A stretch of DNA of 32,020 nt from Bacteroidia bacterium. Its GTDB lineage: Bacteria; Bacteroidota; Bacteroidia; Bacteroidales; Prolixibacteraceae. The stretch lies in the NCBI GenBank assembly GCA_026391315.1, contig JAPLDT010000066.1, forward strand, positions 1-32,020, read 5' to 3'. A program made the position numbers and the translations under genes. The notes beneath the pieces were generated by a model that was not told the DNA's origin, searched no databases, and was given only the letters and a program-made list of their open reading frames with translations. Positions 4,032-30,471 of this stretch are shown here, piece by piece; within the stretch, counting starts at the first letter, position 1, and each line of letters opens with the position of its first letter.

Positions 4032-6227
4032 ATGGAATCAACAGGTATTGAACGAATTAGAGATAGCTTCAAGGCGTTAATGACCGAATGTCGGCCCCAA
4101 ATTCCGGAAGCCGACCACCTGTTGGTCCAAAAAGCGATGGATCAGGCTTTGTTATCTTTGGGCGATGCCAAATGGGAAAATGAAGAGTACATCCTTCACC
4201 ATTCCATGGCTGTTGGCCGGATTGCCGTTTTAGAGCTGGGTCTTTCCACCGACTCTTTGATAGCCTGTTTGTTACACAATACTTTTGACAAAGCGGATCA
4301 TCAATTTTCAGCGGCTGAAATCAAAAGGGAGTATAAACCAGGAGTTGCGGAAATATTGGATGGCATCATCAAAATAAACTCCCTGAATACCGAAAATATT
4401 GCCCTGCAGAGTGAGAATTTCAGACGGCTGATGTTGGCGCTCTCTGGCGACGTACGGGTAATCCTGATCAAAATTGCCGACCAGCTGCAGGACATGCGCA
4501 ACCTTGAAAATCTGCCGGTAGCGCTGCAGCAGCGTTTTTCGATCGACTCGTGGCACCTCTATGCCCCACTGGCACACCGGCTGGGACTATACAAAATTAA
4601 TTCTGAATTGCTGGATCTCTCCTTAAAATACCTTCATCCAGAGGATTACAGGCATATTGTAGAGAAATTGCAGGAGACCACAGTCGAAAGGGCCAATTTT
4701 GTCTCCGCATTTGTTAAACCAATTGAGAAAAAGCTGAAAAGCCGTGGCTTCGATTTTGAAATGAAGGCCCGTACCAAATCTATCTTCTCTATCTGGAACA
4801 AAATGAAAAAGCAGGAGGTCGATTTTCATGAAGTATATGACCTTTTTGCCATTCGAATCATCCTGAATTCGAAATCTGAAAATGAGAAGGCCGAGTGCTG
4901 GCAGGTCTTTTCAGTGGTAACGGAAGAGTACCTTTCTAATCCTGAACGGCTGCGCGACTGGATTACTTTCCCCAAGTCAAACGGGTATGAGTCCTTGCAC
5001 ACCACTGTGCTTGGCCCTGATAAAAAATGGGTTGAGGTGCAGATTCGAACCAGACGGATGGATGATGTGGCCGAAAATGGACTGGCTTCCCACTGGCGCT
5101 ACAAAGAGGGGAAAGCAGGTGGCAAGGAGTTGGACGACTGGCTCAAAAATATCAGGGAGATTTTGGAAAACCCGCAACTAAGTCCGGCAGATTTTATCGA
5201 AGATTTCAAAGTCAATATTTACGATGACGAGATATTTGTCTTCACACCGAAAGGCGACCTGATCAAACTTCGCGCAGGCGCTACTTTGCTCGATTTTGCC
5301 TACGAAATCCACTCACACATTGGCGATCATTGCGTAGGGGGCAAAGTAAACGGAAAACTAGTGACCTTGAAATACCGTTTGAAAAACGGCGATCAGCCGA
5401 TTGTTGAAACCTCCAACAGCCAAAAACCTAAGCTCGATTGGCTAGATTTTGTTGTCACATCCAAAGCGAAATCACGTATCAAAGCTAGTCTCAACGAGGA
5501 ACAAAAACGTGAATCGGAAAACGGGAAAGAGATTCTAAGGCGCAAGTTTAAAAATTGGAAAATTGAACTGAGCGATCAGGTAATCCGTGACCTGCTGAAA
5601 CATTATAAGCTGAAACTGGCCTCTGAGCTCTATTACCAGGTTTCGACCGGTAAGATTGATCCGCTGGGTATTAAGGAGGTCATAACGGTCCACGAAGTGG
5701 AGAGCGCGAAGGAACGTCTCGCTGAGATTTTGGCGCCAACAGAGCTTAAAGAGTTGTCGTTTGACGCAGGCGATGATTATTTGGTGATTGACAATGATCT
5801 GAAAAATGTCATCTATAAGCTGGCAGTTTGCTGCAACCCAATCTTTGGTGATGATATCTTTGGCTTCGTGACCATCCGTGAAGGGATAAAAATACACAGA
5901 ATATCCTGCCCGAATGCCAAGCAGATGACCGAAAGGTATCCATACAGGTTGATCAAAGCCAAATGGCGATCCACCGGTAAAAGGAACTCCTTTCAGGCTA
6001 CTGTAAGAGTAGCAGGGTCTGACAGAATTGGAATGGTGAACGACCTGACCCATATTATTGCCAAAGAGGTTGGCGTGCAAATGCGGTCCATTACCATCAA
6101 CAGCGAAACCAGCTCCTTCGAAGGGATATTACGAGTCTATGTCAACGATACCCACCACCTCGATTTCCTGATGCAAAAACTCAAGAATATCAAAGGAGTC
6201 GATTCGGTGACAAGATCAGATGGTTAA
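4032..6227 (+). CDS. relA: Long RelA/SpoT homologue, (p)ppGpp synthetase with degenerate hydrolase domain
   Basis: A 731-residue RSH protein. Order: HD-type domain (about 50-190), synthetase (about 230-345), TGS (about 398-460), conserved-cysteine region around VCCNPIFGDDIFGFV, and a C-terminal ACT domain (about 655-731). The synthetase retains D270 in DLFAIRII, Y319/H323 in NGYESLHTT and E335 in EVQIRT. The hydrolase site is altered: the normal HDxxED reads HNTFDK (residues 82-87) and the ADRLHN region reads ADQLQD (149-154). This argues for a synthetase-only, RelA-like enzyme that needs a second hydrolase elsewhere. The loop RLRD at 306-309 is of the basic RxKD type usually seen in bifunctional enzymes, an odd pairing with a dead HD site. 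TGS and ACT domains suggest ribosome and uncharged-tRNA sensing. The start ATG at 4032 is 12 bases after the CBM9-like gene. Confidence 0.93.
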   Translation: MESTGIERIRDSFKALMTECRPQIPEADHLLVQKAMDQALLSLGDAKWENEEYILHHSMAVGRIAVLELGLSTDSLIACLLHNTFDKADHQFSAAEIKREYKPGVAEILDGIIKINSLNTENIALQSENFRRLMLALSGDVRVILIKIADQLQDMRNLENLPVALQQRFSIDSWHLYAPLAHRLGLYKINSELLDLSLKYLHPEDYRHIVEKLQETTVERANFVSAFVKPIEKKLKSRGFDFEMKARTKSIFSIWNKMKKQEVDFHEVYDLFAIRIILNSKSENEKAECWQVFSVVTEEYLSNPERLRDWITFPKSNGYESLHTTVLGPDKKWVEVQIRTRRMDDVAENGLASHWRYKEGKAGGKELDDWLKNIREILENPQLSPADFIEDFKVNIYDDEIFVFTPKGDLIKLRAGATLLDFAYEIHSHIGDHCVGGKVNGKLVTLKYRLKNGDQPIVETSNSQKPKLDWLDFVVTSKAKSRIKASLNEEQKRESENGKEILRRKFKNWKIELSDQVIRDLLKHYKLKLASELYYQVSTGKIDPLGIKEVITVHEVESAKERLAEILAPTELKELSFDAGDDYLVIDNDLKNVIYKLAVCCNPIFGDDIFGFVTIREGIKIHRISCPNAKQMTERYPYRLIKAKWRSTGKRNSFQATVRVAGSDRIGMVNDLTHIIAKEVGVQMRSITINSETSSFEGILRVYVNDTHHLDFLMQKLKNIKGVDSVTRSDG

Positions 6228-6229
6228 TA

Positions 6230-6328
6230 AATTGGGAAATGTGGAAATGTGAAAATGTGGAAATTGACACTGCATTCGTACGAAGCGATCATTTCCACAT
6301 TTCCACATTTTCCAATTTCCACATTAAA
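6230..6328. repeat. Intergenic dyad repeat, TGTGGAAA family, copy 1
   Basis: The left part consists of repeated 8-base words (GTGGAAAT, GTGAAAAT, GTGGAAAT), and the right part of their complements (ATTTCCAC, ATTTCCAC, ATTTTCCA). The centre is the perfect 10-bp palindrome TTCGTACGAA at about 6274-6283. A near-identical copy in the opposite orientation lies at 7441-7527. The right arm abuts the ATG at 6329, so a transcript from relA would carry a large hairpin just before the TPR gene. Confidence 0.85.
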
Positions 6329-6607
6329 ATGTTTATGAAAGAACTGATTTTTAAGGCCCGTCAACTCAGGGATGAAGGCGATTTTCAGGAGGCGCTAACG
6401 TTGCTTGACCAACCATCGCTGAAAGGGGATGGCGAAGCTGCATTCCTGGCCGGAGAGATTCATTACAACAACCAGAATTGGGGCGCCGCGCTCAATAGTT
6501 TTCGTCATTGTATGCAAATTGACCCATCTCAGACAGCCGCGCAAACCTATGTAGACCTTATTTTAAATATTCTGGGATTTTTTCACACCGATCAGTTCAA
6601 CCCATGA
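6329..6607 (+). CDS. Small TPR-like protein
   Basis: About 92 residues, starting at ATG 6329 or 6335 immediately after a long intergenic hairpin. The sequence ELIFKARQLRDEGDFQEAL, LLDQPSLKGDGEAAFLAGEI and YNNQNWGAALNSFRHCMQID matches two tetratricopeptide-type helix pairs. An upstream in-frame extension to 6239 would run through the repeat and is not believable. It has no signal peptide. The end DLILNILGFFHTDQFNP occurs in short Bacteroidota TPR proteins. It lies 101 bases after relA in the same direction and may be co-transcribed. A protein-interaction role is all that can be said. Confidence 0.7.
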   Translation: MFMKELIFKARQLRDEGDFQEALTLLDQPSLKGDGEAAFLAGEIHYNNQNWGAALNSFRHCMQIDPSQTAAQTYVDLILNILGFFHTDQFNP

Positions 6608-6785: not shown

Positions 6786-7439
6786 ATGAAACGTTTTGCT
6801 GTAGTCTTATTCGTGTGCTTCAGCGTATCATCCTTGTACTCCCAGGATGCTATGACGCTGAGAAATGAGGGGAACAAAGCAATGGTTGCCCAGCAGTGGG
6901 CTATCGCACTTGCAAAGTACGAAAAAGCGCTCACCGTTTGGGGAAAGAGACCTACCGATCAGGCCATGATCTTTTCCATGGGGGCCTGCGCCTACCGTGT
7001 CAACGACATGAAAAAATCATTGAAATATATCGATATGTCGATCGCGGCAGGGCACAACCTCGACATGGCCTACCAGTACAGGCTTTGCATCATGAAGGCC
7101 CAAAACAACAATGATGAATACCTCAAAACTTTGAAGGAGGGATTGGTCAAAGTCCCCAATTCCAAAGTTATGAAAGAGACGCTGGCTAAATATTACTTTA
7201 CCGAAGGTGATAAGCATTACCATGAAGCCCTTTCGATCTTGAAAACGGCCGTTGCACAGGTAAAAGCGGGCAAATATCCGGCATCCGACAAGGCCTTTAA
7301 AGATCAGAACGACAAAGCGAGAATGGAATTAAAAGAAGCCATGAAATACATGAACATGAGTCTGGAATTGAATCCCAACGATGAAAATGCAAAAACGGTT
7401 AAAACCAATTGTCAGAATCAGTTGAATATGCTGATTTGA
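6786..7439 (+). CDS. Exported TPR-repeat protein
   Basis: A 217-residue protein with a clear signal peptide (MKRFAVVLFVCFSVSSLYSQ) followed by TPR-type helix pairs: ALRNEGN-like entry at TLRNEGNKAMVAQQWAIAL, a second unit at FSMGACAYRVNDMKKSLKYI, and a last unit ending MNMSLELNPNDENAKTVKTN. It is presumably periplasmic and a scaffold; no catalytic motif is present. It is the second TPR gene in the pair bracketed by oppositely oriented copies of the TGTGGAAA repeat. A phylum-type promoter box lies upstream. Confidence 0.85.
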   Translation: MKRFAVVLFVCFSVSSLYSQDAMTLRNEGNKAMVAQQWAIALAKYEKALTVWGKRPTDQAMIFSMGACAYRVNDMKKSLKYIDMSIAAGHNLDMAYQYRLCIMKAQNNNDEYLKTLKEGLVKVPNSKVMKETLAKYYFTEGDKHYHEALSILKTAVAQVKAGKYPASDKAFKDQNDKARMELKEAMKYMNMSLELNPNDENAKTVKTNCQNQLNMLI

Positions 7440-7440
7440 T

Positions 7441-7527
7441 AATTGGAAAATGTGAAAATGTGGAAATGATCGCTTCGTACGAATGCTGTGTTAATTTTCA
7501 CATTTTCACATTTCCCAATTTTCAAAT
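7441..7527. repeat. Intergenic dyad repeat, TGTGGAAA family, copy 2 (inverted relative to copy 1)
   Basis: Reading the reverse complement aligns with copy 1 over about 85 bases, including the shared core GCATTCGTACGAAGCGATC. The arms again consist of GTGAAAAT/GTGGAAAT words and complements. The element occupies the entire spacer between two convergent genes (exported TPR on plus, Dld-II on minus), so it could work as a bidirectional stop signal. The repeat nature is directly visible; the function is inference. Confidence 0.87.
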
Positions 7528-10359
7528 TTATCCTTCCGGTTTTTCTGAACTGACTTTATCTACCAGGTAAACAATGGATTGAAACGGAATTCCTGAGTGG
7601 AGGCTGAGTCCGATTTCACATGTCCGGCTGTTGGAATATCCCCGGAGTACCGATATGGGAAGCTGGGCTTTCAGGGTACGTAAACCATGCTGGTTCAATT
7701 CAGGAAAGGAAAATCCACGGTCGCCGGCAAAACCGCAGCAATTGGTTTCCACTATCACCACCTCCTTCGCGCAAAGTTTGGCCAGGTCAGTCAGTTTTTG
7801 ATCCAATCCCATCTTTTTCAGACTACACACCGGAAAGACTGCGATGGTTTCGTCCAGGGGAGTGATGGTTAATTGAGGCAACAGATGTTCAAGAATAAAC
7901 TCCACCGGTTCGTACAATTTCATTCTTGTTCCCATGTTTTCACGCATGGTATAAAGGCAGGGGCTCATGTCGCACAAGACCGGATACCTTCCATTTTCGC
8001 TTGCCTTCTGAAGGGCAGCTTCAAGTTCGTTCGATTTTTTATCGCCTGCTTCAGTATAACCTTTACTCGAAAAGGCCATCCCGCAGCACAAATCGGACAG
8101 ATTTTCAGGGTAGATGACATCAAATCCTCCTTTTTGCAACAATTTTAGCATCACCGCCGTGAGCTGTTCCCCTTTCTCGTACCCTGAAGGTCCCATACTA
8201 CGGTTAATACAAGAAGGGAAATAGACTACCTTTTGCCTTGATTTGGATTCGTGGATTAACGGGAAAGAGTGGATTTGTTTGGCACCGGTCGGCATCCATG
8301 GGTTCCATGATGGCAATTTGTTGAAGGTGAGCCAGCGGGCGCTTTTTGTGATGGCCGACATGATACGGGTTCCAACCATTTTGTGCACAAAGGCAATGAA
8401 AGTGAGTCCGGTACGCATCGTCCCGGTTACCAGTTTCATCCGGTCGGCCACCCATACACCACGCTTTTGTCCGGTTCCAATCTCTTCCTGACGGATGGAT
8501 TTTATCAACTTTCCTGTGTCGATTTTCACCGGACAGGCGGTCGCGCATAATCCATCGGTGGCACAGGTTTCGTTGCCTGCATAGCGGTATAATTTAAGCA
8601 GTTGTGCAAGCAAATGAGGCTCTTTCCCACTATTTTTCAGACTGGCTATTTCCCGGTAGGTAACGATTCGCTGTCGCGGAGTGAGTGTCAGTTCTGCTGA
8701 CACGCAATTTGGTTCACAAAATCCACATTCGGTACAAGTGTCAATTTGCTCATGCGCAACGGGTATCGGTTTCAGGTTTTTCAGATGTACAAGCGGATCG
8801 TTGTTAAGGATCACACCCGGATTTAGTAACTGTTCCGGATCAAAGATGGCTTTGATCCGTTTCATCAGCATGTAGGCTTCAGCACCCCATTCCAACTCCA
8901 CGAAAGGCGCCATGTTACGACCGGTTCCATGTTCAGCCTTTAGCGCACCGTCGTATTTGTGAACAACAAGTTCAGAAATATCTTCCATGAAATTTTTGTA
9001 CCGTTCCACCTCCTTATCGGTAGCAAAATCCTGCGTGAAAACGAAGTGCAGATTGCCCATCAGGGCATGACCAAAGATGACCGCTTCGTGGTAACCCCAT
9101 TTTTCGAAAAGTTGCTGAAGATCCAGTGTAGCTTCTGCCAACCGAATAACAGGGAAAGCGACATCTTCAATAATCACGGTCGTGCCTTTCTTTCGCATCG
9201 CTCCGATAGAAGGGAACATCCCTTTTCTGATTTTCCAAAGATGGGCGCATTCTGTGGAATCAGCTGTAAACTGTATAGGTTCAACTGTTGGAATATCTTC
9301 TAAAATCCTGGCTATCTGTTTTATCTGAACCTCAAGCAGGCCGGTCTCTGCTGCCCTGGTTTCGACCAAAAGGGCACATACATTTTGATCGAGTGTCTTT
9401 AGATCAACCGCTAATCCTTCTTCCGTTTCTACCGATTTTAAACCAGCCCTGTCGATCAGTTCGACAGCTGCAACCGGCGCTTCCTGCAACAGAATAACTG
9501 CCTTGCATGCCTCGTAAATTGAAGGAAACAGCATCAGTGAACTTGCTTTGCATGGATGCTCTACAACCGTTCTGTATCTGATTTCAGAAATGAAGCCGAG
9601 CGTTCCTTCTGATCCAATTATCAGATGCTGCAGAATATCAATGGGATCTGAAAAATCTATCAGGGCATTGAGACTATACCCTGTCGTATTTTTCATCTTG
9701 TATTTGTGCCGGATCCTCGCTGAAAGTGATTTATTTTCAGTAACAAATTCCTTCAAAAGATCGATTTGATTCAAAAAGCTGTCATGGGATTTTCTGAAAG
9801 AGGCACAACTTTGCTCATCACCGGTATCCAGCAGTGTTCCGTCCTGAAAGATAATCCGCATGCTTAACAATGTCTGGTAAGAGTTGTCAGCAGTTCCGCA
9901 ACACATTCCGCTGGCATTGTTGGCGGCAATCCCACCAATCATTGCAGACTGAATAGATGCAGGATCCGGTCCTATTTTTCTGCCGTATTTTGCGAGCAAG
10001 GCATTGGCCTCGCTGCCTGTAAGTCCGGGCTGTAACCTAATTGCTGCACCATCCTCTTCAACTACCGATTTTTTCCAGTTGTTGCCGGCAATCACCAGCA
10101 ATGAATCGCTAACGGCTTGTCCGGAAAGACTGGTGCCCGCGGCACGAAAGGTAACAGGGATTTTCAGACTGGACGACTCTTCCAGAATCAGCGACACCTC
10201 AGCCTCATTTTTTGCCTTGATCACCATTCGGGGAATGAGCCGGTAAAAGCTGGCATCAGTTCCGAATGCAAGGGTATGCAACGGATCGTGGTAGATGCGG
10301 TTTTTGTCGACAAATGGAACCAGCCGATCGTAAAGTTCCTGAAAATTACCAGTTAGCAT
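7528..10359 (-). CDS. FAD-linked and Fe-S D-lactate dehydrogenase, Dld-II type (GlcD-GlcF fusion)
   Basis: A 943-residue fusion. Residues about 35-180 form an FAD-binding_4 domain (AAGTSLSGQAV, GGIAANNASGMCCG) and about 270-515 the FAD-oxidase C-terminal domain (FGHALMGNLHFVF, KAEHGTGRNM, LLNPGVIL). A ferredoxin-like module follows with C542/C545/C548/C552 (CTECGFCEPNC) and C599/C605/C609 (CATDGLCATACP). Two cysteine-rich CCG regions close the protein (LCCGMAFSSKG, NCCGFAGDRGF). This is the layout of Shewanella Dld-II, a membrane-associated D-lactate oxidase passing electrons to quinone or cytochrome. YdiJ-type D-2-hydroxyglutarate dehydrogenases share the layout, so the 2-hydroxyacid substrate is not certain. 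It follows the DUF4143 ATPase gene on the same strand after 49 bases. Confidence 0.9.
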   Translation of the reverse strand: MLTGNFQELYDRLVPFVDKNRIYHDPLHTLAFGTDASFYRLIPRMVIKAKNEAEVSLILEESSSLKIPVTFRAAGTSLSGQAVSDSLLVIAGNNWKKSVVEEDGAAIRLQPGLTGSEANALLAKYGRKIGPDPASIQSAMIGGIAANNASGMCCGTADNSYQTLLSMRIIFQDGTLLDTGDEQSCASFRKSHDSFLNQIDLLKEFVTENKSLSARIRHKYKMKNTTGYSLNALIDFSDPIDILQHLIIGSEGTLGFISEIRYRTVVEHPCKASSLMLFPSIYEACKAVILLQEAPVAAVELIDRAGLKSVETEEGLAVDLKTLDQNVCALLVETRAAETGLLEVQIKQIARILEDIPTVEPIQFTADSTECAHLWKIRKGMFPSIGAMRKKGTTVIIEDVAFPVIRLAEATLDLQQLFEKWGYHEAVIFGHALMGNLHFVFTQDFATDKEVERYKNFMEDISELVVHKYDGALKAEHGTGRNMAPFVELEWGAEAYMLMKRIKAIFDPEQLLNPGVILNNDPLVHLKNLKPIPVAHEQIDTCTECGFCEPNCVSAELTLTPRQRIVTYREIASLKNSGKEPHLLAQLLKLYRYAGNETCATDGLCATACPVKIDTGKLIKSIRQEEIGTGQKRGVWVADRMKLVTGTMRTGLTFIAFVHKMVGTRIMSAITKSARWLTFNKLPSWNPWMPTGAKQIHSFPLIHESKSRQKVVYFPSCINRSMGPSGYEKGEQLTAVMLKLLQKGGFDVIYPENLSDLCCGMAFSSKGYTEAGDKKSNELEAALQKASENGRYPVLCDMSPCLYTMRENMGTRMKLYEPVEFILEHLLPQLTITPLDETIAVFPVCSLKKMGLDQKLTDLAKLCAKEVVIVETNCCGFAGDRGFSFPELNQHGLRTLKAQLPISVLRGYSNSRTCEIGLSLHSGIPFQSIVYLVDKVSSEKPEG

Positions 10360-11587: not shown

Positions 11588-11683
11588 AACCAGCATAATT
11601 CGCGTGAAAATTGCTGGTTAACCAGCAAAATTCGCGTGAAAATTGCCGGTTAACCAGCATAATTCGCGTGAAAATTGCTGGTT
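11588..11683. repeat. Three abutting 32-bp dyad repeats upstream of the DUF4143 gene
   Basis: Units at 11588-11619, 11620-11651 and 11652-11683 are directly adjacent. The first and third are identical; the second differs at two positions. Each begins AACCAGC and ends GCTGGTT (GCCGGTT in unit 2), so every unit is itself a dyad with an inner AATTCGCGTGAAAATT. The spacing of 32 bases is about three helical turns, which would put bound proteins on the same face. It lies between the divergent DUF4143 and ggt genes. There are no spacers, so it is not a CRISPR array. Confidence 0.93.
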
Positions 11684-21980: not shown

Positions 21981-22289
21981 TGATTATCAACAGATTGCTT
22001 CGTCGTTCCTCCTCGCAATGATAAATTTTATATTTGCTTGATTATCAACAGATTGCTGGTTGTGCAGTTGGATGAGGCGAGGGCTGGATCGTAAAACACG
22101 ATTTGTTGTCAATTTTCACCCAGCCCTCGCCTCATCCAACGCAATCCCTGTGAGAGTCGTCATTGCGACCGCGAGGCACGAGCGGGAAGCAATCTGTTGC
22201 ATTCTCACAACTCAAAATAACCCACCGTCATTGCGACCACTGCCTGTACCGATTTTTCATCGGGAAGAAACGAAGTGTGAAGCAATCTG
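21981..22289. repeat. Cluster of intergenic repeats between mtaB and miaB
   Basis: The 352-bp spacer holds no gene but several repeat types. A 19-base direct repeat (TGATTATCAACAGATTGCT) is at 21981-21999 and 22039-22057. Modules of the form GTCATTGCGA ... GAAGCAATCTG occur at 22158-22199 and 22227-22289 and, inverted, at 21991-22021. Between them, 22067-22087 and 22120-22140 form a perfect 21-bp inverted repeat (GTTGGATGAGGCGAGGGCTG plus one base) enclosing a small ATCGT/ACGAT hairpin. The GTCATTGCGA/GCAATCTG module resembles a dispersed repeat known in many bacterial genomes. Confidence 0.88.
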
Positions 22290-27313: not shown

Positions 27314-27446
27314 AGAGGATAAGCACATTTATTTAATGAACATGCTTATATTTACATGGTAAGCATTTGCATTTGATACCATAAAACATCTCTAACCTTG
27401 AATTGAATAAGAAGTACTACTCACACCGAATAACTACAATAATAAG

Positions 27447-28613
27447 ATGACTGATTATTTTACAAAAATTTGGAACAATCGCGAATGGATATTTTCAGGC
27501 ATTGGAGTACTAATCATTTCAATTATTGGTGGACTTATTCTCAGAAAAAGAAAAAATGAAAAAAAACTAGAGCCTCATGGAGATGGCCACAATTATGCTG
27601 CTGAAACTATTCATATACATAATTCAAGTGGTCTTTCAGCGACTGATGTAAAAGAATTAGCAAGATCCGTTTTTATTGAAAATTTCCCAAAACTTCAAGA
27701 AGTTGCCAAAATAGAAGCTGAAAAGAATCGTGATTTATTCATTACAGAACTCGATAATAAAATTCAAGAAAAACTTAATCAGGAAGAAATAAATCGATTC
27801 AATAAACCGGATATTCAGTTTGTATTAAAGGATGCGATAATATCGGCATCAAGAAAAGACAACAAGGAAAATCGAACTATCTTAAGCAATTTAATAATAG
27901 ATCGGGTAAAAAGTGATGGCATTGAGTTTAAGGAAATTGTTTACAATGAGGCAATAAATACAATTTCACGTTTGACTAAGAATCATTTAGATATTTTAGC
28001 CTTCACTTTTATTACAAGATATGCCACTTTCGTTGACGTTAAAGACTTAGATAACTTAGAACAATTGCTTCGAGCAAATATTTGTCCGTTTATAAATTTT
28101 TCCTCATCAAATGCTCAATTTCAACACTTAGAATACTCTGATTGTGCAAATATTAGTATAGCCTCAACTTATTTAGAAGCGGCATTCCGAAAATCATATA
28201 GTAATTTATTTCTAATAGACCAAAGTCCTTTTATTGACAAGCCAGCATACGATGCATGGAATTTACAACCTGACTTAAAACCAATTTTCTTAAGACCCAG
28301 TGATGACTGTGAGAATTATTATTTTATTCAAAGAACAGCAGAAGAAATTCAACAGGAAAGAGATAGACTAATCAAAGGAGACATCCCAGATTTTATTGAT
28401 TTATCAAAGGATTTTTTAACATTTGTAAAAGGTGTAAATGAAATTGCAGCAGAAATAAAGTCAAAATTTGATTTTGGAGAAAGACTTTTTAAACAATATA
28501 ACGAAACTAAAGTAGGCCATCTTACATTAACCTCTGTTGGGCTAGTAATTGGAGCATCTCATTTAGAAGCTAAAACCGGAGAAAGGCTTGATATTGATAT
28601 TTGGATAAACTAA
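27447..28613 (+). CDS. Membrane-anchored LPO_1073/Vpar_1526-like protein
   Basis: A 388-residue protein with one N-terminal membrane segment (about residues 14-33, WIFSGIGVLIISIIGGLILR) and a basic stop-transfer RKRKNEKK. Then follow AAETIHIHNSSGLSATDVKE and a helical region FPKLQEVAKIEAEKNRD, PDIQFVLKDAIISASRKDNK and EAINTISRLTKNHLDILAFT. This order resembles the uncharacterised LPO_1073/Vpar_1526 family, whose members often start with an IHI-type strand before a helical bundle; the assignment is from memory of the family pattern. The presence of a membrane anchor in an island of orphan genes suits an effector or sensor role, but no enzymatic motif is visible. AT-rich codon use sets it apart from the housekeeping genes. 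Confidence 0.6.
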   Translation: MTDYFTKIWNNREWIFSGIGVLIISIIGGLILRKRKNEKKLEPHGDGHNYAAETIHIHNSSGLSATDVKELARSVFIENFPKLQEVAKIEAEKNRDLFITELDNKIQEKLNQEEINRFNKPDIQFVLKDAIISASRKDNKENRTILSNLIIDRVKSDGIEFKEIVYNEAINTISRLTKNHLDILAFTFITRYATFVDVKDLDNLEQLLRANICPFINFSSSNAQFQHLEYSDCANISIASTYLEAAFRKSYSNLFLIDQSPFIDKPAYDAWNLQPDLKPIFLRPSDDCENYYFIQRTAEEIQQERDRLIKGDIPDFIDLSKDFLTFVKGVNEIAAEIKSKFDFGERLFKQYNETKVGHLTLTSVGLVIGASHLEAKTGERLDIDIWIN

Positions 28614-28641
28614 TAACAGTGTTTCATATTTAGAACAATTT

Positions 28642-29175
28642 TTACGAGGCTTTGGTTCTGATAATATGTTCCCAATAATTGCGTTGCCACAATTTGCCGT
28701 CGAACCGTTTCCATCCCTGATTTTTGACCCCGCGAATGTATTCGTTTGTCGTCATTGTTTTAAACCAATCGACCATTTCGCCCATGGGAACACCAAATTT
28801 TTTGTTGTCGGGACCGTATTGGGGAACGTCAATGGTGCACGTATCAACAGGACGCCCACGTAGGGGCGCCCCTACGTGGGCGTCCTGTTGATGATCGTCC
28901 ATAATTTCGATGATACAATGAAAATGGTTGGGCATTACGACCATTTCACGGCAACGAATTCCGGGATATTTGTTTTCCAATTCGTAATACCATTTTGCAA
29001 TCATTTCGCCGGCGGCGGTTAATATCATTTGGGGCGTCCCGATGCGTATTTCGCCGAACAAACATGCGCGGTTTTGGACACATGTCGTGATAAAATACAA
29101 TCCGGCCTTTGAATAATCATATCCTTTCAATCTGATCGATTTGCGGTGATGGATATTTGGATGGTAATCAGGCAT
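28642..29175 (-). CDS. REP-associated tyrosine transposase (RAYT, IS200-like Y1 family)
   Basis: A 177-residue single-strand transposase-like protein. Family features: GLYFITTCVQNRACLFGEI, the HUH motif MPNHFHCIIEI (H84, H86), the conserved FKTMTTNEYIRG in which Y145 is the likely nucleophile (59 residues after H86, as in IS200/IS605 enzymes), and LWQRNYWEHIIRT at the end. RAYTs are domesticated, cut REP hairpins and usually occur as single copies. Residues 95-111 are encoded by a perfect 50-bp palindrome at 28843-28892, an in-frame insertion between the HUH and tyrosine motifs; translation stays open. No IS ends are visible around the gene. Confidence 0.92.
   Translation of the reverse strand: MPDYHPNIHHRKSIRLKGYDYSKAGLYFITTCVQNRACLFGEIRIGTPQMILTAAGEMIAKWYYELENKYPGIRCREMVVMPNHFHCIIEIMDDHQQDAHVGAPLRGRPVDTCTIDVPQYGPDNKKFGVPMGEMVDWFKTMTTNEYIRGVKNQGWKRFDGKLWQRNYWEHIIRTKAS
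28843..28892. repeat. Perfect 50-bp palindrome inside the RAYT coding sequence
   Basis: Each half is 25 bases and the halves are exact reverse complements with no loop. The centre reads GTAGGGGCGCCCCTAC, flanked by GGACGCCCAC and GTGGGCGTCC. GTAG next to a GC-rich stem recalls the REP hairpins recognised by RAYTs. It encodes part of QQDAHVGAPLRGRPVD without a stop codon. Confidence 0.97.
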
Positions 29176-29255
29176 GTTCTATTGTTAGGTTGGATAAAAT
29201 TATACAATATTCCCGGAACCCTGTTTCGATGCCCGGAGAATAGCATCTGTCACCT

Positions 29256-29726
29256 TCAAAGAAGCCTGACCTCTTCTTCATAATCAAACTGCAGATCCTC
29301 ATGAAGTGTAGCCAATGATTTTTTAATTTTTTGGACCTGTCGAACATAGATGTTGCCCAATGCGCTGTTCAAGGGCATTGCAATTCCTGACTTTCTTAGT
29401 TTTATGCAAAAATGAATCAATATTTCAACCTCCGTTTGTTTTGAACCCGAGTATTTGATCTGTTTATTGGCAACCCCGAGTATTTTGCGAATACCCTTCT
29501 TTGCATGGTAAGAATTACTTCTGTTGACCTCCTTAAACATTTCATCCATCTCAGAAATCACCGACTGGATGTATGCTTTTTCATCATACGAATCAAATAG
29601 AAGATAGGTAAGCAACTCTTTATTTTCCTTTTTGTATTTAACCATTTTCAGACAAAGCTCCGCCATCCGTGCAGGGTGCACACTTGCCAATTCTGTCTTG
29701 ATCTCCTTCAGTGAGGCTGTTTTCAT
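29256..29726 (-). CDS. DUF6155-like protein
   Basis: A 156-residue soluble helical protein. Recognisable pattern: ELCLKMVKYKKENKELLTYL, LFDSYDEKAYIQSVISEMDE, a KKGIRKILGVANKQIKYSGS segment and the end LATLHEDLQFDYEEE. This agrees with the uncharacterised DUF6155 family common in Bacteroidota; the assignment is from pattern memory. No catalytic motif or signal peptide is present. It lies 15 bases after the ywbE-like gene on the same strand, so the two probably form an operon. Confidence 0.7.
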   Translation of the reverse strand: MKTASLKEIKTELASVHPARMAELCLKMVKYKKENKELLTYLLFDSYDEKAYIQSVISEMDEMFKEVNRSNSYHAKKGIRKILGVANKQIKYSGSKQTEVEILIHFCIKLRKSGIAMPLNSALGNIYVRQVQKIKKSLATLHEDLQFDYEEEVRLL

Positions 29727-29741
29727 AAATGTGAAAGTGGT

Positions 29742-29933
29742 TTATTTGATCGACTTGACCCTGCCAACTTCCCCAGAGGTCAGTTTGACTTTGATACCAT
29801 GGGGGTGAAACGAGCTATTGGTCAGGATATCCTGGACAACTCCTTCCGTAATTTTGCCGGATCGCTGGTCATTTTTCAATACGATTCCTACTTCAGCTCC
29901 AACCTTCACTTCACTTCTGTTTTGACCTTGCAT
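29742..29933 (-). CDS. YwbE-like small protein (DUF2196)
   Basis: About 63 residues with the full YwbE pattern: VKVGAEVGIVLKNDQRSGKI, TEGVVQDILTNSSFHPHGIK and VKLTSGEVGRVKSIK. YwbE proteins are tiny beta-barrel-like proteins of unknown role. The start ATG at 29933 (MQGQNRSEVKVG) gives the usual family length. The frame stays open to 30206, but that extension has low-complexity, shadow-like sequence and no family counterpart, so I exclude it. Confidence 0.8.
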   Translation of the reverse strand: MQGQNRSEVKVGAEVGIVLKNDQRSGKITEGVVQDILTNSSFHPHGIKVKLTSGEVGRVKSIK

Positions 29934-30471
29934 CGAACGAATGTTTTTTGCAAAATAGTGATTTCGAATGAAATTTGACTCATTTCTTTCCGTCAACACA
30001 TTGACAAATGGCTCTCTCTTTTGAAATATTGCGCTTATTGGAGAGTTTTCTTCTTTACAAAACATATCTTTTGCTTTCCAAAAACAGAATATTGAAATCC
30101 TTTCACAAAACTGATATTGTCTAGAGAGTCGATAATTTTGATTCTGATCCAAATTATTAAGAGCTTTCCTAAAAATTAAATATTTGGAAACTATTGTTTT
30201 ATTCAATGCTTTTGTATATAATTACATTCCAATTCCTCAAACACCTAACCTGAAAAATCCGTTCCCTTATAACGAATAGAGGTTCTGAAGATGTTTTGCG
30301 ATTTAAGAATTTACTTAAATCAAAAGGAATTTTTTGAGATCAAACTAAAAGAATGTTGTTAGTTCCGACCAATAGACTAAATATTTCTGAAATACAGTGG
30401 CCGTCAGAATTAACTTAGTAAAAAGGGCTCCATCAAAAGCACCCTGAGTAAGTACCTTAATCTTCAAAAAA
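29934..30471. other. AT-rich spacer without recognisable gene
   Basis: A 538-bp stretch between the YwbE-like gene and the lipoprotein gene. The minus-strand frame continues open to 30206, but its product has no recognisable features. Beyond 30206 there is only AT-rich sequence with a slightly GC-richer patch at 30400-30445. I see no repeats, tRNA or strong terminator. Confidence 0.35.

Follow-up and report, generated by a model that had tools for sequence, protein, structure and literature searches.

In-frame insertion of REP elements in tnpA_REP genes, generally between the HUH and Tyr motifs, is given as a feature of TnpA_REP subclass 2.4 in the part of Quentin et al. (2018, PMC6006769) available to us. 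Intragenic REPs, some of them in longer palindromes, are described in the available part of Di Nocera et al. (2013, PMC3733652). The element analysed here is of a known kind, because these sources already describe in-frame REPs in the RAYT loop (in 2018, for subclass 2.4) and intragenic REPs within longer palindromes. The spread of REPs and the role of RAYTs remain open questions in the field. We analysed a stretch of 32,020 nucleotides from a Bacteroidia bacterium, which is called the window here. Our explanation, which we hold with good confidence, is that a double-foot REP sits, with the reading frame kept, in the beta3-alphaC loop of a TnpA_REP gene that resembles subclass 2.4 (RAYT group 4), and that its palindrome is kept at the DNA level, probably by template switching. 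Coordinates of palindromic features are given without strand.

A perfect palindrome in a truncated RAYT gene

The inverted-repeat search located a perfect palindrome of 50 bp at 28843-28892. Its two arms (28843-28867 and 28868-28892) are 25 nt each and 100% complementary with a spacer of 0 nt, and about 3e-11 such pairs of arms are expected by chance in 32 kb (32020 x 4^-25). The palindrome is in frame with an ORF of 177 aa on the minus strand (28642-29175), in which it covers residues 95-111. The sequence-only reading had reported a palindrome without loop or mismatch, in frame in a RAYT gene, and the coordinates of the arms and the ORF bear this out. When the codons of the gene were shuffled synonymously, the longest stem had 13 pairs as compared with the 25 observed, and none of the 1000 shuffles reached 25. 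This result indicates that the protein sequence does not account for the palindrome. Against dinucleotide shuffles, the palindrome gave a z of -10.1 in DNA folding and of -11.1 in RNA folding, with a predicted RNA energy of -53.2 kcal/mol. The Rfam search of 27400-30300 gave no match.

The ORF at 28642-29175 (minus strand) was assigned as a RAYT gene (TnpA_REP, subclass 2.4-like) without the C-terminal YIxNNP segment. The NCBIfam model NF047646 (REP_Tyr_transpos) matched it with an E value of 6.2e-12 and 45.6 bits, which is below the cut-off of 80 bits, and the Pfam search of the gene gave no match. A profile of 58 relatives matched E. coli TnpA_REP (4er8) with an E value of 1.5e-8; the alignments A1 and A2 consist of 58 hand-picked sequences, namely the window gene and 57 of the 99 genes with the Tyr motif. 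The closest orthologue, L036 in the genome G025, is intact and shares 87% protein identity with the window gene. Its structure model matched 4er8 (E 2.7e-4; TM-score 0.44 by query and 0.58 by target) and the TnpA of IS608 and ISDra2 (IS200/IS605 TnpA). With these profile and model matches, the PNHFH at residues 82-86 (28918-28932, minus strand), identified in the alignments, represents the HUH motif of a Y1 transposase fold.

For comparison of the gene family, 168 loci were scanned. RAYT genes numbering 104 were kept, and 11 duplicates and 53 loci without both motifs in one frame were excluded; the 53 comprise partial genes, distant relatives and places where the palindrome is not in a RAYT gene. 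Also among the 53 are four loci (L040, L043, L049 and L164) whose palindrome is in a RAYT frame. The YIxNNP of the homologues aligns to YIYINP of 4er8 (Y115 and N119 in the chain numbering), and a looser Tyr motif, Y[IVL]..NP, is matched by 99 of the 104 genes. YIxNNP is absent from the window gene, which ends in HIIRTKAS, and no remnant of it was detected in any of three frames over the 300 nt that follow, so that a frameshift was rejected as the source of the lost C-terminus. The proposal that H84 and H86 form the HUH motif therefore stood, and the proposal of Y145 as the nucleophile did not, because the YIxNNP of the homologues that aligns to 4er8 is missing here. DNA homology with L036 ends at position 28660, and 28642-28659 (minus strand) is a tail without homology. 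Judged from its sequence, the window gene is a truncated RAYT relative and not an intact member, and it is probably inactive, because the catalytic YIxNNP segment is missing. Outside the loop (140 codons), dN and dS against the orthologue were 0.055 and 0.249, respectively, which suggests that constraint acted during much of the divergence.

The REP core and the loop that holds it

Comparison between genomes delimited a double-foot REP core of 36 bp, GGACGCCCACGTAGGGGC/GCCCCTACGTGGGCGTCC, at 28850-28885. Its inner part, GTAGGGGCGCCCCTAC at 28860-28875, has GTAG and CTAC feet, which fit the double-foot definition (GT[AG]G with the complementary C[TC]AC) in the available part of PMC6006769. The consensus of the core is GGACGCCCACGYAGGGGC/GCCCCTRCGTGGGCGTCC, and the flanks differ between the sites. 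The core was common to 15 RAYT genes, including the window gene, in frame and in the same loop, and to six places outside recognisable RAYT genes. These six come from five genomes, of which four belong to the window's genus and the fifth to its family. Two of them are L163, within an open frame of 229 aa, and L153, whose 152-aa match to the extended loop of L161 is weak (25%, E 5e-5). The earlier idea of a REP-type element in frame in a gene whose transposase is of the element's own class is thus upheld, with the core found also outside recognisable RAYT genes in the five genomes.

Searched as a 28-mer with up to 3 mismatches, the core occurred in 15 of 140 genomes of the family at 18 places, of which 12 are in RAYT frames and 6 are not; the RAYT-frame copy in G080 (contig C170) carries an internal TGA. 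Three of 393 genomes in the sample of the order had the 28-mer, the window's own genome included. A variant with both feet changed (GCAG/CTGC) was found in four congeners (G026, G028, G029 and G030). According to the available part of PMC8266576, a GCAG substrate is barely cut by the TnpA_REP of S. maltophilia, which belongs to a different group; this speaks against the GCAG version being fully functional. Neither the 36-mer nor the window protein was found in viral contigs, the plasmid search gave four distant records, and the families of G227 and G231 contained no copies beyond the two known ones (1/6 and 1/3 genomes).

The sequence-only reading had also suggested that the host genome may contain a matching dispersed REP family, and this was not borne out. 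The 16-bp centre had no second copy there, the 28-mer was single-copy even when as many as 3 mismatches were allowed, and GTAGGGGC was not enriched (56 matches vs 139 for the reversed control). The many extragenic copies that characterize a REP were not found, the core being present once, and the GTAGAGAC type occurred at one place. With the single core and the lack of GTAGGGGC enrichment, no dispersed family that the element matches was found. The double-foot GTAGGGGC had three matches there, all inside two RAYT genes, the window gene and one other. The second RAYT gene of the genome (G000 contig C99, L035:1136-1885) has two REPIN-like in-frame inserts, one per loop; 219 bp separate them, and their similarity over 55 nt is 93%. 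The orthologue L036 likewise carries a pair of REPs, in the two loops that hold the inserts of the C99 gene. In the DNA alignment with L036, the window has a scar-like ATCGGGACGCCCC at 29031-29043 (minus strand) where the orthologue has GTAGGGGCGCCCCTGCGTGGGCGCCC, and this segment is probably the scar of a second REP in the earlier loop.

Other repeats were observed in the window. Three head-to-tail near-palindromic units of 32 nt like AACCAGCATAATTCGCGTGAAAATTGCTGGTT are at 11588-11683 between two ORFs, imperfect hairpins of AAATGTGGAAATGTG-like units are at two sites at ORF ends (6212-6351 and 7434-7528), and a perfect inverted repeat of 21 nt with a spacer of 32 nt, GTTGGATGAGGCGAGGGCTGG, is at 22067-22140 between two ORFs.

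The loop that holds the palindrome follows the HUH strand (beta3-alphaC surface loop). This loop was hypervariable across the relatives in the alignments, with a length of about 20 aa in the Flammeovirga genes L113 and L115 vs 51 in the window gene. An alignment of homologues had been proposed as a check on the insertion, and it identified the loop as a hypervariable insertion site. The loop is predicted to be disordered: in the AlphaFold model of the window protein, residues 98-114 have pLDDT <50, and the core of the protein is mostly confident. Among the relatives, the loop contains recurrent peptides (VGADLRVCP, VGATLVVAQ, DAHVGAPLRGRP and GQPQGIAPT), and 75 of the 104 loops contain a peptide from a set picked after inspection. 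A REP kept in this loop suggests that peptides such as VGADLRVCP or VGAPLRGRP, which recur in transposases as annotated, arise by translation of REP DNA.

The stem was equalled by at most one of 200 synonymous shuffles in 27 of the 104 RAYT genes, in a test which favours perfect, almost loopless stems. The loop makes up about 24% of the residues, yet it holds 23 of these 27 excess stems; the other 77 genes showed no excess. Other REP types, e.g., GTAGAGACGCACGGCCGTGCGTCTCTAC and GTAGAGACGCGATTAATCGCGTCTCTAC, were present in the loop of relatives; in genes of genomes of the same family they include 28-bp double-foot palindromes such as GTAGAGACGCACGGCCGTGCGTCTCTAC. They are of the type GTAGAGACN{2,20}GTCTCTAC, a pattern found in 72 of the 140 genomes of the family, with as many as 26 places. 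The variable beta3-alphaC insert with an in-frame REP, a feature of subclass 2.4, is therefore present in this group. At L043, L160, L174 and L176, tandem partial REP copies adjoin the palindrome in the RAYT loop, which suggests slippage at the hairpin.

Maintenance of the arms and rival explanations

Beyond the 36-bp core, comparison with L036 showed a 7-bp arm extension that is private to the window gene, in which 28843-28849 pairs with 28886-28892. Within the 25-bp arms, the window and L036 differ in only two adjacent pairs, both of which are compensated. In a permutation test on the 15 RAYT sites, own-arm complementarity was 37/60 vs 23.4 expected at positions 19-22 (p 0.0004) and 53/120 vs 37.3 expected at positions 19-26 (p 0.0012). 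Without L036 it was 33/56 (p 0.0015). L065, L068 and L098 were excluded from the test as repeats of L036, L050 and L040. The arms outside the core are more complementary within a site than between sites, by p-values that are optimistic because the sequences are related. The six non-RAYT sites alone gave p values of 0.19 and 0.08, which are not significant. On the coding strand of the 15 RAYT sites, G.U pairs were counted by eye as 4 of 270 core pairs, with 5 other mismatches; the scarcity of G.U pairs leans towards maintenance at the DNA level rather than at the RNA level only.

We propose that a RAYT would have cut a single strand of REP DNA and joined it into the gene, and that the element would have been tolerated there because the reading frame was kept in a flexible loop. 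Thereafter, the arms may have been kept perfect and lengthened by copying one from the other through hairpin template switching, a process able to create and repair stems according to the available part of PMC8794818. Selection for a hairpin readable by the RAYT possibly helps to keep the arms paired. Support for the resident REP comes from the recurrence of this core in the loop of 15 RAYT genes, the 23 of 27 excess stems that fall in the loop, the other REP types there, the predicted disorder, the model match of the orthologue to 4er8 and IS608/ISDra2 TnpA, the own-arm complementarity, the dN and dS values and the description in PMC6006769. Counting against it are the lack of copies scattered through the host genome, the arm test of the non-RAYT sites, the optimistic permutation p-values, the open frame around L163 and the weak loop match of L153 among the non-RAYT places, the 77 genes with no excess stem, the NCBIfam score below the cut-off with Pfam silent, and the GCAG feet in the four congeners. 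An extension of this proposal, to which we give a rather low probability, is that the main home of the REP is the loop of its own transposase gene, where it would be a recognition site inside the gene, read as a single strand and able to repair itself; it would move together with the gene and now and then give rise to copies at other places. Its bases are the 12 of 18 core places in RAYT frames in the family and the three of three double-foot GTAGGGGC matches in the host genome.

A mutational relic, i.e., a single REP insertion that is now neutral and owes its perfection to template switching alone, is a serious candidate, although we consider it somewhat doubtful. The two adjacent compensated pairs between the window and L036, the ability of template switching to make and repair stems (PMC8794818, available part) and the half-copies in tandem that adjoin the palindrome in L043, L160, L174 and L176 agree with a relic. 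However, divergent genes whose flanks differ have retained this core in one and the same loop, and the feet were changed on both sides from GTAG/CTAC to GCAG/CTGC and not decayed. A selected cis-regulatory hairpin that limits transposase expression, either through the RAYT protein or by stalling ribosomes on the mRNA, appears improbable. The high stability of the mRNA hairpin (-53.2 kcal/mol, z -11.1) and the 23 of 104 RAYT genes with a hairpin excess in this loop would suit regulation, but the core is common to six places outside recognisable RAYT genes, G.U pairs are few though selection on RNA would permit them, and the window copy is perfect despite the truncation of the gene. Conservation of the loop peptide DAHVGAPLRGRP for protein function, with the palindrome as a consequence of the codons, is very improbable. 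The peptide or a close variant does recur in 15 RAYT genes; against this, the stem is lost in the synonymous shuffles (0/1000), by which a protein-driven palindrome was rejected, the same DNA is found outside recognisable RAYT genes, and the loop, predicted to be disordered, has unrelated peptides in its place in relatives. An assembly artefact, for which the draft assemblies in many contigs could be cited, has a negligible probability, with the core in many separate assemblies, including L065, L066, L068 and L098 (three of which repeat other genomes).

Comparison with described REP systems

The double-foot REP resident in the RAYT loop resembles TnpA_REP subclass 2.4 (RAYT group 4), as described in the available part of PMC6006769, in its in-frame position between the HUH and Tyr motifs within a variable beta3-alphaC insert. 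Common to both are also the double-foot form with GT[AG]G and C[TC]AC and hosts among the Bacteroidetes, and the relatives analysed here share the subclass motifs NH[IFV]H, WQ and YIxNNP. Unlike that subclass as described there, the window gene has no YIxNNP, the element was found in this genome only in RAYT genes, and the outer arms are private and compensated, with the GTAG feet lying within a longer palindrome. The GTAG REP families, in the available part of PMC3733652, likewise include GTAG-tagged palindromes and intragenic REPs, some in longer palindromic flanks. Their intragenic hosts include repair, replication and RNA-binding genes, with RAYTs appearing as neighbours, and they have high copy numbers, unlike the window element. 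The Rickettsia palindromic elements (RPE; same source) are also palindromic elements within coding sequences, whereas here the host gene belongs to the class of transposases to which movement of the element is attributed.

In the titles and abstract beginnings of the open-licence literature, we found no description of arm-by-arm compensation of a REP or of a REP mainly in RAYT genes. A REP kept in a transposase loop with pairwise-changing arms is a natural record of hairpin copying, and it places a defined substrate beside its likely enzyme, which is testable in vitro. To the described systems, this locus adds a genome with all three double-foot GTAGGGGC in RAYT genes and arms that change in step.
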